NCBI GenBank assembly: GCA_937925685.1
Contig: CALAMI010000002.1
Span: forward strand, 62,001 to 126,000
Origin: Candidatus Binatia bacterium
GTDB lineage: Bacteria; Desulfobacterota; Binatia; HRBIN30
Direction of reading: 5' to 3'
DNA length: 64,000 bases
The translations under genes were made by a program, and so were the position numbers. Below, in pieces: positions 587 to 42,537 of the stretch. Numbering within the stretch: position 1 is the stretch's first letter; every line of letters begins with the position of its first letter. The notes below the pieces were generated by a model. It was not told the DNA's origin. It searched no databases and saw only the letters and a program-made list of their open reading frames with translations.

Positions 587-1657
587 CTACCCACCTTTTA
601 GCTTGAGCTCACGCTCGAGGATTACCGAGGCTAGGTTCTCTCGATCCATTTCCGTATCGTCTGGAAAAACCTCGTAGTGACAGAGTTGCCGTACAACCCT
701 TGCCATAATTGCCGTGAATTTGTAGAGCGCGAGCATTTCGTAGTAATCGAAGTACTTCGCGGAAAATCCCGAAGCTGCCTCCCAAAGAGCGATGGTTCGT
801 TCACGTGGAGGCAGACCCTCGAGCCGGGAGATCCCGAGTCCCTCACTGAAGCAGCGATCGATCGCCCACCACCAAGCAAGGTCTTGAACCGGATCGCCTA
901 ACCGTGCCATTTCCCAATCCAGCAGGGCGACACACCGTCCCTCCCGGAATAACTGGTTTCCGAAGCGCGCGTCGCCCCAGCAAAGCGCGAGCTGGTCCTC
1001 TGCGGGCTTGTGCGTTTGCAGCCACACCTCGGCTCGTTCGAGCAGTGGATAACGACTGCGATTTAAACCCCAATCGATGAACCGGCGGTAATCATCGAGT
1101 TGCAAATCAAGGTACGTTCGCCCCGGGTCGGGCGCAGAAAATAGCGATCCAACGAGGTCCAGCCACGGAGCGCGGTGCACAGCAGCCATGGCAGCAATCC
1201 CCGCATTCCAGAGTTGGCCCCGTTCGCTCGCGTTGAGTTCAAGGAGCCAACCTGAAGAGTGATAAGGTGGGTTATCCGGTGGAACCTGCCCAGGGATGAA
1301 CTCCATAATGTAAAAATCGTTGCCCAAAATCTCGGGGCGGGTTTCCAGCCATAAGACTTTAGGCACGGGGGCTTCGGTGGAACGGCCGATCCAAGCGAGA
1401 AGGCGATACTGCCGCTCCATGTCGTAGTCCGGGAATACCGTAACCCCTTGGGGACGTAATTTGGCGACGAAAGTGATCCAGAGCTGTTGCTGGCTCCCGA
1501 TGGTTACGTCGAACAACAAAGTGTCGCTGGAGTAACCTGTTGCCGTCGGGCCACGGAGGTTCACCACGGTCAAGCTCTCGAAGGCAGGAAGTTTGCCCTG
1601 GAGCCATCGTGTCAAAGCGCGGCGCATTGCCGCTAGATCACGTCGGGGAGGCGGCAT
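587..1657 (-). CDS. Phosphotransferase family protein (APH / ACAD10-11 N-terminal kinase type)
   Basis: A protein of the aminoglycoside-phosphotransferase/choline-kinase fold, about 356 aa. The Brenner-type catalytic loop is visible as WGDARFGNQLF (the usual HGD is WGD), followed by LLDWEMARLGDP, which supplies the metal-binding Asp. An in-frame ATG at 1759 would overlap the upstream gene by 73 bases, so I chose the ATG at 1657, which falls 29 bases after the upstream stop. Kinases of this type are often found beside acyl-CoA dehydrogenases and may phosphorylate hydroxyacyl substrates, as the kinase domains of ACAD10/11 do. Here the neighbours are an aldehyde dehydrogenase and a lipocalin-like protein, which also suggests lipid or steroid catabolism rather than antibiotic resistance. 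The substrate is inference. Confidence 0.85.
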   Translation of the reverse strand: MPPPRRDLAAMRRALTRWLQGKLPAFESLTVVNLRGPTATGYSSDTLLFDVTIGSQQQLWITFVAKLRPQGVTVFPDYDMERQYRLLAWIGRSTEAPVPKVLWLETRPEILGNDFYIMEFIPGQVPPDNPPYHSSGWLLELNASERGQLWNAGIAAMAAVHRAPWLDLVGSLFSAPDPGRTYLDLQLDDYRRFIDWGLNRSRYPLLERAEVWLQTHKPAEDQLALCWGDARFGNQLFREGRCVALLDWEMARLGDPVQDLAWWWAIDRCFSEGLGISRLEGLPPRERTIALWEAASGFSAKYFDYYEMLALYKFTAIMARVVRQLCHYEVFPDDTEMDRENLASVILERELKLKGG

Positions 1658-1686
1658 ATCGGCTGTTGTTCGCTGGGTGATTTGCC

Positions 1687-2826
1687 TCAGGCTTCTCCCG
1701 TCGTTGGCGGCGCTCCGGAGAACGCATCCTTCAAACCATACCGGCGAAACGGCCCCCAAAATCCAAACTCATGCAGACCGTACCCGACATCCCCGCTGTC
1801 CGTGGTGAAACGGGCTACCTGGTCCACAAGGCCATATTGCCCGAAGGATGCTACCTCTTCGACGTCGCGATGGAAACCTTGGACCACTAGGGGACCTTGG
1901 TACATCCCGTGTCGCCAGTCGGGTTCCATGCCGTAGCCCGTGCCCACGGCCACAAAGGCGTTCAACAATGGAGTGACCGTAATCGTGAGCGGCCCGCCCG
2001 GCGCCTGCGGAAAGCTTAAGCGTGATGCCTGAATTAGGCGCGTTCCTGGGCTGAGCGTATGCTCGTGTTCCGGCCGACCCAGAGCCTCTGGAGGACGTTG
2101 CGGATCCACCCAGATACGGACGGCTTCCTCTAGCGGACGTTGACCATCGTCGTTTTCATTCACCATGTAGAGAATGGCATAGTCAGCAAATTGCATCGGT
2201 GCGTAATTCCACAGCCCCGTCAGTTGTGCCTCGTTCTGCCGAATTCCTGGATGCTCAGGTTCTCCCACGGGACGTACCCCCCAGGAGCGATCCCGTGTTC
2301 CCCACCAGCGGTCTGTGCTGACCCGGAATCTATGTCCGGCGATTTGCAGCCAACCGGTCCAAAACCCGGTCTGCATGAACCGCTGCGTGTCAAACAGGAC
2401 CCGACCGTATTTTCGTATGAACTGCCGCGGTTCGAGGTATGCGGGTGTATGCCCGAGCCACTGCAAATCACAGGCAAGAGAATACTCGCCAGGTTCCAAG
2501 ACGAAGCGCAGCCTTTTAAGAGGTTCCTGAACCTCCACGCGAAAGGGCCCGACGCTAGTGTCCATCCGATCGCCTAAGATTTTCGAGGCGCGCACCACGT
2601 GGTGTTTGCCGTCGAACGTGGCGCACGCGAAGGCGTCTTGCACGGCAAGATTGGGGTACTGCCCGATGCCGAAAATGACGAACAGTGAATCGTCGCAGGC
2701 GTGCACGTTGAAGTAGTAACGGTCGTAGAAGTTCCGGTCGCTAGTTCCTACGTGTCGCACAACCTCGGCGATTTGGTGTACCGGGTAGTCATCCCAGGAC
2801 GACAACGCTGAACGATTGTTCGTCAT
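1687..2826 (-). CDS. Conserved hypothetical, AttH/lipocalin-like (DUF7064/7065-type)
   Basis: About 379 aa, soluble, with no signal peptide. The central [19 protein letters not shown] stretch resembles the DHSWG-type signature of AttH/CrtC-like calycin proteins that occur in lipid and steroid clusters of actinobacteria and Binatota. Other sections are beta-rich with many aromatic residues. The longer reading from 2961 would run into the mutS promoter region, so the ATG at 2826 (MTNNRSAL) is preferred. It begins a minus-strand group with the phosphotransferase and aldehyde dehydrogenase and diverges from mutS. The family link is from memory of the motif; the biochemical role is unknown. Confidence 0.7.
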
Positions 2827-5796: not shown

Positions 5797-8544
5797 ATGA
5801 CGACAGATCCGAGAGCGATGAATCGAACCGAGACAATTACTGGCGGTTCTGCTGGCGCGCCCATGGTCGTTCTCCGCCTGGAGGGCGACTGGGGCCGCGC
5901 TGCCCGCGAGTATCTCGATGCAACGCGCGAGCGTTTGTTCGCTTGGCATTGCGATGGAGCAAGCGGCTCGGCCATCGTACAAGCATACACCGCTGCTGTC
6001 GACGGTTTGATTCAAGTGCTCTTCGACGCGTCGGCAAATGAGGCCCAACAGAGATTCCCCTTGTTGAATCAGAGTTTCTCTTTGGTGGCTCAAGGGGGCT
6101 ACGGCCGGGGCGAGCTCAATCCCTATTCCGATTTAGACCTGTTGTTTCTCTTTCCGTTCAAGAGCGAGCCCTACATCGAGTACGTTGCCGAACGCATTTT
6201 GTACACCCTCTGGGATGCACGACTGACGGTGGGCAACGCCCTGCGCGGGGTGCGCGAGTGCCTACGCTTGGCCACCAAGGACTTTAAGGTCAAAACCGCA
6301 CTGCTGGATGCGCGGTACGTGTGTGGCGACAAGTCCTTGTATGACGATTTCGCCCAGCGCATGGAAAAGGAAGTTTTGAACCGCGATGTGGATCGTTTTT
6401 TCGAAAACGTGCTGGCAGAAGTTTCGACGCGCCACCACCGCTACGGGGATTCGGTATACCTGCTCGAACCCCAAATTAAAGAGGGACAAGGCGGGCTGCG
6501 GGAACTGCATTCGGCATTGTGGCTTGCCAAAGTGAAGTTCAAAACCAACCGGCTCGGCGAGCTCGTGCAAAAGGGCATCCTGACTGAGCGGGAACGCGCA
6601 GAGGTCGAGGAGGCGCGAAATTTTTTGTTTCGGGTGCGTAACGCCTTGCACTTCTTGGCTCGGTCCCACCAAGACCAACTCACCTTCGAATATCAGGAGC
6701 GCATCGCTCCGATGCTCGGCTTTGCGGACACCCCACAAATGAAAGGGGTGGAACACTTCATGCGCGCCTACTACATGGCCGCGGCCACACTCGATCGCTT
6801 TGCTGCGGACATGATCGAACGGTGCGTCCGGCAACCGCGATCGTATTTTTCTTTTTTTCGCACCCGTGCGCGGCGCATTCGCCCGGGGGTGACGATCGCC
6901 CAGGGCTTGCTCAGCATCGCAGGACCGGAAATTTTGCACGCCGATCCGAGCAATTTGCTTCGCGTCTTTCTCGATGCGCAGCGACACGAGGTAAAGATTT
7001 CCCGGGCGACGAAGCGCATTTTGCGTGCCCACCTCCACTTGCTTGACGATACCTGGCGCAGCCACCCGGCGACGGTGGCAGCATTTTTTCAGGTCCTGAA
7101 AGGGAAGAATGTTGCGGAGACCTTGCGGGATATGCACCAAGCTGGGGTCCTCGGTGCGTTTTTACCGGAATTCGGCGCACTGACGTGTATGGTTCTCCAC
7201 GACGCCTACCACATTTACACCGTGGATGAGCATTCGCTCCGCGCTGTGCAAGAACTCGAATGGTTGAGAGCGGGCAAATACCGCGACTCCGTACCCTTGC
7301 TCACCCATGTGATGCGAGACATCGACCGGGTCGACCTTTTGCTTTTGGGAATGCTGCTGCACGACATTGGAAAGGGACGGGGAAGCGGCCATTCTGAACG
7401 AGGAGCAGCCATGTGCGACGGCATTGCCGCACGCTTGCACCTGAATGCGGATGAGGCCGCACAGGTGAAATTCCTGGTGGCTCAGCACTTGAACATGGCG
7501 CACTTGGCCCAACGCCGCGACATCCATGACCCGCGATTGATCATCGATTTCGCGCGCCGCGTGGAGACGTTGGACAACCTCAAGCGCTTGTACCTACTCA
7601 CATTTGCTGACATGCGGGCTGTAGGGCCGAAGATCTGGAACAGTTGGCATGACATGCTGCTGGCCGAGCTTTATTTACGCACGGCCGAAGTCTTCGAGCG
7701 GGAGGAGTTCATCGAGGAGGAGTACCGCGAGCGCGCCGCCCGAATCCGGCAGCGGGTGGCAGCGGCTAGCACAGTACCGGAAGCGATCCGTGAACGCTTC
7801 CTTGCGGGCATGCCTGACCGCTACTTCTTATCCACCGCGGAGGAAACGATTCTGCACCACTTGGAGCTCTATCGCGACTACCACAACGGGGAGGTCGTTT
7901 GCTCCGTGCGACACTACCGAGAGCGCGCGTTCAGCGAATGGACCGTGGTTACTGCTGACCGACCCGGTCTCTTTTCCATGATTACCGGGGTGCTTCTCGC
8001 CGAGGGTATGAATATCCTCACCGCTAACATCCACACCAGTACAGCCGGTGTGGCCCTGGACGTCTTCCGCATTTCTCATGGGGACAATCCGGACACCGTC
8101 GTCGCCCCCGAGCGCTGGGAACGTGCAGAGGCTAATTTGCGAAAGGTACTGCAGGGTGCGGTGGACGTAGAGGAGTTGGTGGAGCGTGCACGGCCACAGC
8201 TGCGATTACCACGACGCTACACACCACGTGTCTCCACACAAATTGAGATCGATAACCACGTGTCGGAACACTACACCGTGCTCGACGTGTACACGCACGA
8301 TCGCGTCGGCTTGCTGTTTACGATTACCAACACGCTCTATCACCTGGGGCTGTCCATCCATTTGGCCAAAATCACGACCAACGTGGACCAGGTCCTTGAC
8401 GTCTTTTACGTTACGGACGGCAACGGTCAAAAAATCCTCGACCAGGAGTTCCTCGAGCGGATTCGGCTGGCATTGTACGAGCGGCTCACTGCCGATACCC
8501 CCCAAGCTTCTGGCGAAGTGGTCCGAGCTACTGCAGGTGCGTGA
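5797..8544 (+). CDS. glnD: [Protein-PII] uridylyltransferase / uridylyl-removing enzyme
   Basis: Senses glutamine and uridylylates or deuridylylates PII proteins, setting nitrogen assimilation. The 915-aa product shows the full architecture. The nucleotidyltransferase motif GGYGRGELNPYSDLDLLF sits near residue 105, a GlnD-type helical linker follows, the HD hydrolase domain has LLHDIGKGRGSGHS, and two C-terminal ACT domains start at WTVVTADRPGLFSM and TVLDVYTHDRVGLLF. The open frame begins at 5650, but that extension has no family resemblance, so the ATG at 5797 is used; ATG 5818 is an alternative. No glnB or glnK is adjacent. The gene overlaps or abuts the recombinase that follows. Confidence 0.96.
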   Translation: MTTDPRAMNRTETITGGSAGAPMVVLRLEGDWGRAAREYLDATRERLFAWHCDGASGSAIVQAYTAAVDGLIQVLFDASANEAQQRFPLLNQSFSLVAQGGYGRGELNPYSDLDLLFLFPFKSEPYIEYVAERILYTLWDARLTVGNALRGVRECLRLATKDFKVKTALLDARYVCGDKSLYDDFAQRMEKEVLNRDVDRFFENVLAEVSTRHHRYGDSVYLLEPQIKEGQGGLRELHSALWLAKVKFKTNRLGELVQKGILTERERAEVEEARNFLFRVRNALHFLARSHQDQLTFEYQERIAPMLGFADTPQMKGVEHFMRAYYMAAATLDRFAADMIERCVRQPRSYFSFFRTRARRIRPGVTIAQGLLSIAGPEILHADPSNLLRVFLDAQRHEVKISRATKRILRAHLHLLDDTWRSHPATVAAFFQVLKGKNVAETLRDMHQAGVLGAFLPEFGALTCMVLHDAYHIYTVDEHSLRAVQELEWLRAGKYRDSVPLLTHVMRDIDRVDLLLLGMLLHDIGKGRGSGHSERGAAMCDGIAARLHLNADEAAQVKFLVAQHLNMAHLAQRRDIHDPRLIIDFARRVETLDNLKRLYLLTFADMRAVGPKIWNSWHDMLLAELYLRTAEVFEREEFIEEEYRERAARIRQRVAAASTVPEAIRERFLAGMPDRYFLSTAEETILHHLELYRDYHNGEVVCSVRHYRERAFSEWTVVTADRPGLFSMITGVLLAEGMNILTANIHTSTAGVALDVFRISHGDNPDTVVAPERWERAEANLRKVLQGAVDVEELVERARPQLRLPRRYTPRVSTQIEIDNHVSEHYTVLDVYTHDRVGLLFTITNTLYHLGLSIHLAKITTNVDQVLDVFYVTDGNGQKILDQEFLERIRLALYERLTADTPQASGEVVRATAGA

Positions 8545-39976: not shown

Positions 39977-40096
39977 TGCCTTGCGGCAGGCGCAGAGCTG
40001 GCGGTGGTTCGCTTTTTACGGATTCTAAGAGCGCTGTTGCCTCGGGAGGGTAAGAGGGGGTAAGCTTCGGGCACAGTTGTCGAGAGGAGGGTAGTC

Positions 40097-40606
40097 ATGA
40101 CGGCAAGAAGGAGCCTAACGGTTTTGCTGGCCGTTGCTTGCTTGGGTTCAGCGGGCGTGGCAGTGTCCTCGCACGCGGCGCCGAACCCGGGCTGTGTTGC
40201 CGAGGCGGCCCATGAACGCAACCTCTGCCGAGACCTTTGCCGGGAAAACTTCCAGGCGGCGAAGGACCTGTGTCGGAACATTAATCACGACTGTGCCGAT
40301 GCCTGCCGGGCGGGACGCGAAGCTTGCTTGGAAGGTACGGCAGAAAACCCAGGCCCGGTGGCAACGTTGCGAAGCTGCATAGAGAACTGCAACGACAATT
40401 TGAACGCGGAGAAGACCCGTTGCCGAAACGAGCAGTGCCCAGAGGGAACCCCGAACCGCGAGGCATGCCTTGATGCCTGCATCGACGCTGCTCAGGTGGT
40501 AGCGTTCCAATGCCGCGATGGGTGCCGAGAAGCGGCACGCCCAGGGCTGAAGTTGTGCCGCGATGCGTTCCGCGCTTGTATCCGCAACTGTCCGCCGGCG
40601 CCTTAG
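40097..40606 (+). CDS. Secreted Cys-rich protein with repeated Cx3Cx10C motifs
   Basis: 169 aa. A Sec signal peptide ends near HAA, leaving about 141 residues with 18 cysteines (an even number). The spacing Cys-x3-Cys-x10-Cys recurs exactly at 44/48/59, 94/98/109 and 124/128/139. The last cysteines at 143, 154, 161 and 165 extend the pattern. The helices between them are Arg/Glu/Ala-rich. This suggests a compact all-helical protein held by disulfides. GAGGAGG ribosome site before ATG 40097. I do not recognise a family; similar Cys-rich exported proteins occur in Binatota-like and myxobacterial genomes. No partner oxidase is adjacent. Confidence 0.8.
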   Translation: MTARRSLTVLLAVACLGSAGVAVSSHAAPNPGCVAEAAHERNLCRDLCRENFQAAKDLCRNINHDCADACRAGREACLEGTAENPGPVATLRSCIENCNDNLNAEKTRCRNEQCPEGTPNREACLDACIDAAQVVAFQCRDGCREAARPGLKLCRDAFRACIRNCPPAP

Positions 40607-40954: not shown

Positions 40955-41545
40955 GTGGCGGGCGTGTTTTGGCGGATCGTCGGTGAGGCACTGTTGACCC
41001 TGATGGTCGGTGCAGTAACGGCCTCGGCATTGGTTGTCCTGCAGAGAGACTTTCACGATTTGGTGCACCGTGCAGAACTGATCCTCGAGGGTACTGTTTC
41101 CCGGGTCGAAGAGGCTTCAGACGCCGCGGGAATTCAACGGACCCTGGTTACCTTGAAGGATCTTACCATCTATAAGGGGCAAGTAACGGAGCCGAACTAT
41201 ATTTTGGACGTAGTCGGCGGCAGCAAAAACGGATTTCGCTCGCAGGTGCTCGATCTTCCCTCGTTCGCTCCGGGCGATCGGGTTATCCTGTTCGTGCGCG
41301 GTAACGGCGAGGCAGTGTTCCCTGTGGTCGGGGTCCACCAAGGATACTTTCGCGTTCAGCCGCGGGCCGACGGAAGGCTAGGCGTCGTGCGTTGTGACGG
41401 ACTCCCCCTGGTTGGGCGCTACCAACGTACCCTTCGCTTTGCACCCCGAACGAGCCGCGGGAGAGAACGCGCCGTGTCGGTAGAAGAGTTCCGCACCTGG
41501 ATCCACAGCGAGCTGCAAATGCTCGACAGGAGTGAAGCTCGTTGA
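40955..41545 (+). CDS. Exported protein of unknown function, coupled to the metalloprotease
   Basis: 196 aa, GTG start. An N-terminal hydrophobic leader (IVGEALLTLMVGAVTASALVVL) is followed by a beta-rich domain. Recurring landmarks are LILEGTVSRVEEAS, TLVTLKDLTIYKG, VVGGSKNGFRSQVLD and FAPGDRVILFVRG. This arrangement recalls small exported proteins next to matrixin-like proteases in myxobacteria and relatives, though this is from memory. The stop overlaps the protease start (TTGA), so the two are translationally coupled. It may be a propeptide-like or inhibitory partner. Confidence 0.72.
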   Translation: MAGVFWRIVGEALLTLMVGAVTASALVVLQRDFHDLVHRAELILEGTVSRVEEASDAAGIQRTLVTLKDLTIYKGQVTEPNYILDVVGGSKNGFRSQVLDLPSFAPGDRVILFVRGNGEAVFPVVGVHQGYFRVQPRADGRLGVVRCDGLPLVGRYQRTLRFAPRTSRGRERAVSVEEFRTWIHSELQMLDRSEAR

Positions 41546-42537
41546 AGCGCTCGATTTCGTTGCTCGCCGTGCTGGCAGGAGTCGGTCTCGGCTCGTGGCC
41601 GGGGCCCTTGTTTGCCTGGACATGCATTCGGGCAAATCCGGCCAATCCTTCCAGTCGTTGCATCCACTGGCCGGAAGGGAAGGTAACGGTGAAGTCGTTC
41701 CTTGGCGCCCCTTCCCAGGGCCCGCTCCTTAATGGCACACGCACGTGGGACGAGAACACGCTTTTGGCGGCCAATGAATGGAATGCTCAGGGGGCATCCG
41801 TGAAAATAACGGTTGAGATCGGTGGAACCTTCCACAATCCCTGTGGTCGCCAAGGTGCTGGTCATGCGTGTGATAATACCGGACCTCCCGGGGACAACCC
41901 GATCCTCTTTGCCAACGACTTCTGTGGGCGCGATTTCGGTGACATCATTCAGTTGACGAACAATTGTTATCGGCCCGATACCGGCGCGATGGTGAACGCC
42001 CCCGTTTTCATTAGTTCCAAAGTGCGCTGGAACGCGTACGACGGAAGAATCCGCTTCGACACCTCCACCGGTGTGCCCGAGCCTGTCTATGATATTCGTC
42101 GGGTGATTTTGCACGAATTGGGTCACGTTCTCGGTCTCGCTCACCCCGATGAAGCAAATCCTCCACAGGCTGTACTTGCGATCATGAACTCGCGGGTCAG
42201 TAACCTCGACCGTCTGCAAACGGATGACGTTGCCGGACTGCTGGCGATTTACCCTCCCGCGACCCAGGGCCCACTGCCCACCCCGTCCCAGGGGTGCGCG
42301 ATCGAGCCCGCGATGACCCTGCGGCCGTGGCTTGCCGCTCTTGCGCTGGTCGTAGGCATGACTCGCGTTCGACGCTCGTTGGTCCGTGCTCTCTCGAAGA
42401 GGCAGGCCTGCTCTCGAGCGTTTGCTTCCGGAAGAAACGGCACTCTCCGTTGTTGGGAACAAACGAAATGCCAAATCACCGAGGTCGCGGGTGAGAGGGC
42501 AGGCTCAACCGTAAGCAGCAATCAAGGCGCTTCCTAA
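41542..42537 (+). CDS. Secreted matrixin-type metalloprotease with C-terminal hydrophobic segment
   Basis: 331 aa, TTG start overlapping the upstream stop. Signal peptide (LLAVLAGVGLGSWPGPLFA), then a mature domain with six Cys in the first 130 residues. The zinc site HELGHVLGLAHPDE is near residue 191 and the Met-turn follows in AIMNSRVSNLD. This is a metzincin of the matrixin kind. After the catalytic domain a Cys (SQGCAIEP) precedes a hydrophobic stretch (LRPWLAALALVVG) and Arg-rich VRR, which looks like a C-terminal sorting signal. Unusually, about 53 further residues follow and overlap the convergent DMT gene by 33 bases; a frameshift or extended ending is possible. Confidence 0.83.
   Translation: MKRSISLLAVLAGVGLGSWPGPLFAWTCIRANPANPSSRCIHWPEGKVTVKSFLGAPSQGPLLNGTRTWDENTLLAANEWNAQGASVKITVEIGGTFHNPCGRQGAGHACDNTGPPGDNPILFANDFCGRDFGDIIQLTNNCYRPDTGAMVNAPVFISSKVRWNAYDGRIRFDTSTGVPEPVYDIRRVILHELGHVLGLAHPDEANPPQAVLAIMNSRVSNLDRLQTDDVAGLLAIYPPATQGPLPTPSQGCAIEPAMTLRPWLAALALVVGMTRVRRSLVRALSKRQACSRAFASGRNGTLRCWEQTKCQITEVAGERAGSTVSSNQGAS

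Follow-up and report, generated by a model that had tools for sequence, protein, structure and literature searches.

An exported 18-cysteine protein from a Binatia bacterium belongs to a family with mirror-image cysteine spacing, probably a helical hairpin stapled by nested disulfides

The 64,000-nucleotide stretch of Candidatus Binatia DNA analysed here (the window) encodes, at 40097..40606 (+), a cysteine-rich protein of 169 aa that we judge to belong to a real family, found in no library searched, and to carry the design of the disulfide-stapled helical hairpin to an extreme. We think it likely that the protein is exported and oxidised into a hairpin of nested disulfides, that its first helix (H1) carries disulfides of its own, and that the whole acts as a rigid structural or spacer module. 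The computed evidence comprises an export-type N-terminus, the family itself, the mirror-image spacing of its cysteines, their covariation and the predicted helices; from this we infer the actual disulfides, the pairing of the H1 cysteines, the location after export and the function.

Gene and protein

The open reading frame is preceded by AGGAGG, a likely ribosome binding site seen directly at 40085..40090 (+), six bases 5' of the ATG, and its translation belongs to no named family in the libraries searched. Residues 1-28, ending in SHAA, read by eye as a signal peptide (40097..40180 (+)), and the claim of export made by the earlier, sequence-only reading is supported. There are 19 cysteines in all, one of which (C15) falls inside the signal peptide as read by eye, leaving 18 in the mature protein, the even number that had been claimed. 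An RR pair at residues 4-5, looked at by eye as a Tat signal, is missing from the orthologues L031 and L003. The mature chain contains no Met and 2 His, and its VILMFYW content is only 14%.

The gene is real and is under purifying selection. Comparison with two other genomes of the genus shows all 18 mature cysteines conserved and 95 of the 122 remaining mature residues identical across the three, and the single pair whose dS is below saturation has a dN/dS of 0.06. Bacterium HR30 (HRbin30) is the nearest relative that has a name, at 77 percent identity. A chance open reading frame was considered and is ruled out by the conservation within the genus. High cysteine content alone proves nothing here, since 22 other frames of at least 60 aa in the window also exceed 7.5% Cys. 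Scans of the window with Rfam and for tRNAs found nothing, a promoter scan found none, and the one terminator-like site found in a scan is expected by chance.

Cysteine spacing

The sequence-only reading drew attention to three sets of cysteines with identical Cx3Cx10C spacing, at 44/48/59, 94/98/109 and 124/128/139. The positions are as claimed, and a fourth set at 139/143/154, overlapping the third, had been missed. When the mature sequence was shuffled the 4,11 spacing appeared at least three times in 2 of 5000 trials, and in a fairer test any one pair of spacings appeared four or more times in 47 of 5000, which makes the pattern, taken by itself, no more than moderately surprising. That reading took the sets to be three tandem units, each a small helical hairpin, which we now regard as very improbable. 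The equal spacing is real, even four times over, but two of the sets share C139 and so cannot be separate units, AlphaFold2 puts 139, 143 and 154 in one continuous helix, the gaps of relatives are mirrored about a turn, and the cysteine pairs that are gained and lost together are mirror mates that cross the supposed units. The triplicated unit is probably wrong, and the rungs of a single mirror-symmetric hairpin account better for the equal spacings.

This symmetry can be followed in relatives that carry repeats of 12 cysteines, where the gap string 4,7,11,4,11,9,11,4,11,7,4 is an exact palindrome in 13 of 14 aligned repeats; in the fourteenth a 10 replaces one 11. By arithmetic done by hand, 30 of the 34650 possible orders of that gap set are palindromic. 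The six cysteine pairs of an exactly mirrored repeat share one position sum, as is characteristic of an antiparallel pair of helices that face one another across the nine-residue step, and every gap except the turn is close to a whole number of helix turns. Other relatives mirror other gap sets, namely 4,7,11,4|9|4,11,7,4, 4,18,4|9|4,18,4 and 4,7,15,11|14|11,15,7,4. Shuffling the order of the gaps within each protein gave p<0.05 for the longest exact mirror in 36 of 51 proteins and p<0.01 in 23 of 51, values which are not independent tests because the proteins are related. Five or more rungs are found within one residue in 47 of 75 members, leaving 28 without, again in a set of related sequences.

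The window protein itself fails the exact-mirror test (p 0.98), as do its two orthologues (0.96 and 0.98), because some six extra residues lie between C77 and C94. These residues, 82-88 AENPGPV at 40340..40360 (+), appear in the alignment as a gap of 17 against 11 and break the mirror in the genus; L004 has a similar insertion, and most relatives are without it. When one indel is allowed the window protein shows seven rungs, which 83 of 20000 gap shuffles also reach, in a test chosen after the pattern had been seen.

Predicted structure and the proposed ladder

AlphaFold2 worked from just two sequences, those of the window protein and of the orthologue in HR30. For residues 30-169 it returned a pLDDT of 83.1 and helices at 34-59 (low confidence), 64-79, 87-113 and 121-163; for residues 60-169 the pLDDT was 94.8 and the pTM 0.80, with the last three as long antiparallel helices. 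H1 covers residues 34-59 at 40196..40273 (+), with pLDDT blocks of 43-57, and carries a stripe of C33, C44, C48 and C59 at gaps 11-4-11. H2, residues 64-79 at 40286..40333 (+), holds C66, C70 and C77 as the first half of a putative left rail, its second half being H3, residues 87-113 at 40355..40435 (+), with C94, C98 and C109. The long H4, residues 121-163 at 40457..40585 (+), holds C124, C128, C139, C143, C154 and C161 and would be the right rail. The protein had been called helical and disulfide-rich, and both descriptions are supported; where repeated hairpin units had been envisaged, the prediction shows one long helix opposite two shorter ones and not three hairpins.

Foldseek found no match to this model below E 0.6 in the PDB, and its best against viral models reached only E 0.18. 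The look-alikes returned by VIA are helical hairpins or bundles, among them ATP synthase c subunits (Z 8.4, rmsd 4.1 over 84) and prefoldin (Z 8.1, rmsd 5.9 over 93); Z is at most 8.6, within the common range for helical models, and shows arrangement and not kinship.

From mirror spacing and covariation we propose a ladder over residues 66-165 (40292..40591 (+)), with putative rungs 66-165, 70-161 and 77-154 (position sum 231), 94-143, 98-139 and 109-128 (sum 237) and 114-124 (sum 238). The protein would be exported and then oxidised outside the cytoplasm, the helices at 64-79 and 87-113 forming the left rail and that at 121-163 running antiparallel as the right. The ladder cysteines, at the helix-register gaps 4, 7 and 11, would lie on one face with each bonded to its mirror mate, giving seven nested disulfides in the window protein, the genus-specific 114-124 at the tip, and the cystines would take the place of the usual hydrophobic core. 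The window's genome carries a VKOR gene, in keeping with oxidation to disulfides outside the cytoplasm.

Covariation points to the same pairs. Among 37 aligned domains with nine variable cysteine columns, 98/139 and 114/124 are each concordant in 37 of 37 and 94/143 in 36 of 37, the exception being L035. C98 and C139 are both lost in L005, and the 114/124 pair is present only in the window's genus. All three covarying pairs are mirror mates, with position sums of 237 for 98/139, 238 for 114/124 and 237 for 94/143, and the covariation rests on few evolutionary events, perhaps three or four of them independent.

The total of cysteines is even in 63 of the 75 members, these being counts over related sequences. 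Among the 12 odd ones, L076 and L096 are cut by a contig end and L008 and L046 have an upstream cysteine counted in, so eight remain odd: L014, L037, L039, L040 (27 Cys), L144, L145 (13), L152 (23) and L015 (13). Two proteins break the pairing rules individually. L152, at 985..1755 (-), is missing a single cysteine from its second unit, for 23 in all, and L035, at 7715..8224 (+), has extra Cys, with C143 present and C94 absent; either sequencing error or real change could account for them.

The four cysteines of H1 (C33, C44, C48 and C59) would form two more disulfides, either in their own chain as a small hairpin or with the H1 of a second molecule as an antiparallel covalent dimer. The middle gap of H1 varies among relatives (4, 7, 8, 9 or 10). 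Either arrangement suits the stripe, the mini-hairpin within one chain (33-59, 44-48) or the antiparallel ladder between two. For members with a gap of 4 we lean slightly towards the interchain ladder, because AlphaFold2 draws one helix there, at low confidence. A wider proposal, which we offer tentatively and with more doubt than conviction, is that the gap string is a mirror code, that single-domain members are antiparallel H1-H1' dimers with rungs 33-59', 44-48', 48-44' and 59-33' (11-4-11 being itself palindromic), that tandem members are fused dimers, and that the family is a kit for extracellular cross-linked rods. Of 10 tandem proteins, 4 have no C48 in domain 1 and no C44 in domain 2; with the H1 helices paired antiparallel, this would amount to the loss of exactly one rung between the domains. 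Against fused dimers, the variation in the middle gap also fits the intrachain mini-hairpin, and those same four proteins, which are among the odd counts above, carry one extra cysteine that brings them to 27.

Family and distribution

The absence of a recognised family, as had been claimed, held under wider searching: the window protein has no Pfam, NCBIfam or PDB sequence match at E up to 10, and the family profiles have none among PDB sequences. Pfam run on 31 members matched one to Antistasin (E 5.9e-4) and one member each to six other families at E 0.16 or worse; on another alignment of 14 members its best match was Vps5 (E 0.044), and the best E values in two NCBIfam searches were 0.021 and 0.12. 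We take these scattered single-member matches as chance. In the open-licence literature no paper was found with the word combinations searched.

With the single protein as query and E up to 1, matches came from 34 of 58 related genomes, and many were weak. At E up to 1e-5 a profile of the full domain reached at least 25 of the 148 genomes of the class, Binatia, and a profile of the 12-Cys repeat at least 34; their union covers at least 36 genomes, in eight families of the class, and these figures are lower bounds because only part of the candidates were scored. The phylum was sampled in draws of 395 and 297 genomes, where outside the class only G076 and G148 had relatives; both belong to one family, of which 2 of 3 genomes match. 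No relative was found on viral contigs and plasmids.

The 75 distinct proteins collected differ in architecture. Some have a single domain and some two in tandem, one form consists of a leader and up to five 12-Cys repeats with as many as 68 cysteines in a chain, and in another two domains are joined by long Thr-rich linkers (L135-L138). In L143, at 818..1543 (-), the ladder domain follows a collagen-like Gly-X-Y stretch (PF01391, E 3.8e-5, below Pfam's cut-off). True duplication does occur in relatives, where it affects either the whole domain (two copies) or the 12-Cys hairpin (up to five copies).

A second member of the family is encoded in the window's own genome, on contig C11 (L118, 1249..2070 (+), 273 aa). 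It consists of a His-rich leader and two 12-Cys hairpin units, and has counterparts in the two other genomes of its genus, in L120 and L121. A subgroup of relatives (L093, L108-L112, L128, L146, L147 and L149) places a ten-Cys hairpin, 4,7,11,4|turn|4,11,7,4, before the twelve-Cys unit and shares a C-terminal tail, for example YGSASQAFL or SGAF, which is possibly a sorting or anchoring signal.

Relation to known cysteine-rich helical proteins

The nearest parallels in design are small eukaryotic hairpins. Alpha-hairpinins are described in PMC11591084 as plant antimicrobial peptides and trypsin inhibitors with the motif CX3CXnCX3C, or CX3CX3CX4-20CX3CX3C in the six-Cys form. As set out there, they have an antiparallel helix pair, nested disulfides and mirrored cysteine spacing, as does our family with its predicted helices and putative disulfides. 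However, they are short plant peptides of two or three rungs, whereas the ladder family would have six or seven over about 100 residues and is bacterial, exported and found in tandem arrays. No sequence relation between the two was detected, and the window protein, with 18 mature cysteines at gaps of 4, 7 and 11, goes beyond the four- or six-Cys motif with no further cysteine pairs. The twin CX3C small Tim proteins and the twin CX9C proteins (Cox17-like) are likewise helical hairpins, with an inner and an outer disulfide according to PMC3759932, but they have two rungs and belong to the eukaryotic intermembrane space; no Pfam match to twin CX3C or CHCH families was seen for the window protein (E up to 10) or for 31 members (E up to 1). 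Our verdict is that the family works like the disulfide-stapled hairpin of alpha-hairpinins and small Tim proteins and is a member of neither.

A different comparison is with Csp1 (DUF326, PF03860), which is also exported and helical with Cx3C motifs and many cysteines, but which, as PMC7558416 describes it, holds those cysteines in the reduced state to bind Cu(I) and has a signal of the Tat type. If the window protein stored copper or held another metal by thiolates, the cysteines lining its helical core would bind Cu(I) as in Csp1, an explanation that we find quite unlikely. Cx3C on helices, export and the helical prediction are all compatible with it; the class does contain true Csp1-like genes (3 of 56 relatives pass the PF03860 cut-off, and their proteins match Csp1 in the PDB), and methylotrophy is given as common in Binatota in PMC8262859. 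The three Csp1-type proteins provided a positive control for profile comparison, and hhalign against them returned a probability of 0.5 percent over 28 columns. Furthermore, PF03860 matched none of the 31 or 14 members, and the window protein has no Pfam match at E up to 10. The Csp1 relatives have 13, 13 and 12 cysteines and no mirror, in contrast to the ladder family, where the spacing is mirrored, cysteines come and go in pairs and totals are mostly even, and the mature window protein is without Met and has just the two His. CuMMO is reported in PMC8262859 for the orders Bin18 and Binatales and not for HRBin30. Copper storage was thus set aside after comparison by profile with real Csp1 relatives gave it no support. 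As to the four-helix bundle of Csp1, the ladder model is a two-rail hairpin, and no Csp entry is among the structural matches listed, neither of which decides against a likeness to Csp. The three Csp1-type genes (L113, L114 and L115) lie in three genomes of the class, and the contigs of L113 and L114 also carry a member of the cysteine-ladder family, 8 to 18 kb off.

Genomic neighbourhood

Upstream of the gene lies a sulfatase of the alkaline phosphatase superfamily. Downstream, an open reading frame of 196 aa with no Pfam family (40955..41545 (+)) is overlapped at its end by the start of a matrixin-like metallopeptidase (PF00413, E 1.8e-7) at 41542..42537 (+). In the two other genomes of the genus the 196-aa frame keeps its place beside the gene, and it also stays together with the metallopeptidase across the genus. 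Synteny of the neighbours goes no further than the genus, and there they are uninformative because the whole region is syntenic. Taking as recurrent any neighbour seen within 5 kb at three or more loci, the genes recurring outside the genus are short-chain and zinc dehydrogenases (Pfam on 4 ORFs) and frames that overlap the family gene itself or other genes. A conserved partner gene, for which a survey of neighbours had been suggested, was found at none of the loci surveyed outside the genus.

These neighbours bear on whether the same fold might serve as an inhibitor or antimicrobial, as in alpha-hairpinins, in place of a structural role, which we consider unlikely. Alpha-hairpinins, with that helix pair and nested disulfides, do act as antimicrobials and trypsin inhibitors (PMC11591084), and the window and both other genomes of the genus have a gene for the matrixin-like peptidase 0.9 kb downstream. 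However, no peptidase or immunity-like neighbour recurs outside the genus, and tandem arrays with as many as five ladders, like the long Thr-rich linkers, suggest a structural part.

Discussion

The low hydrophobic content, the tandem arrays, the Thr-rich linkers and the collagen-like fusion favour a part as structural element or spacer outside the cytoplasm; both the linkers (L135-L138) and the collagen-like stretch (L143) fit extracellular life. The most probable role would be that of a rigid module resisting heat, proteases and denaturation and serving as structure or spacer in the envelope or in material outside the cell. The order HRBin30 of the phylum Binatota was recovered from thermal springs according to a 2021 mBio paper (PMC8262859), and the window's lineage, placed with that thermal-spring order, has one rung (114-124) more than the relatives examined, which would make a relation between heat and rung number directly testable.

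If the nested-disulfide hairpin is correct, the disulfide pairing of a large family would be readable from mirror symmetry in its sequences and could be checked by covariation, with no structure required. Bacteria would then possess a class of helical rods with a cystine core instead of hydrophobic residues. Such a class would bear on the envelopes of uncultured bacteria and on the design of very stable helical modules.
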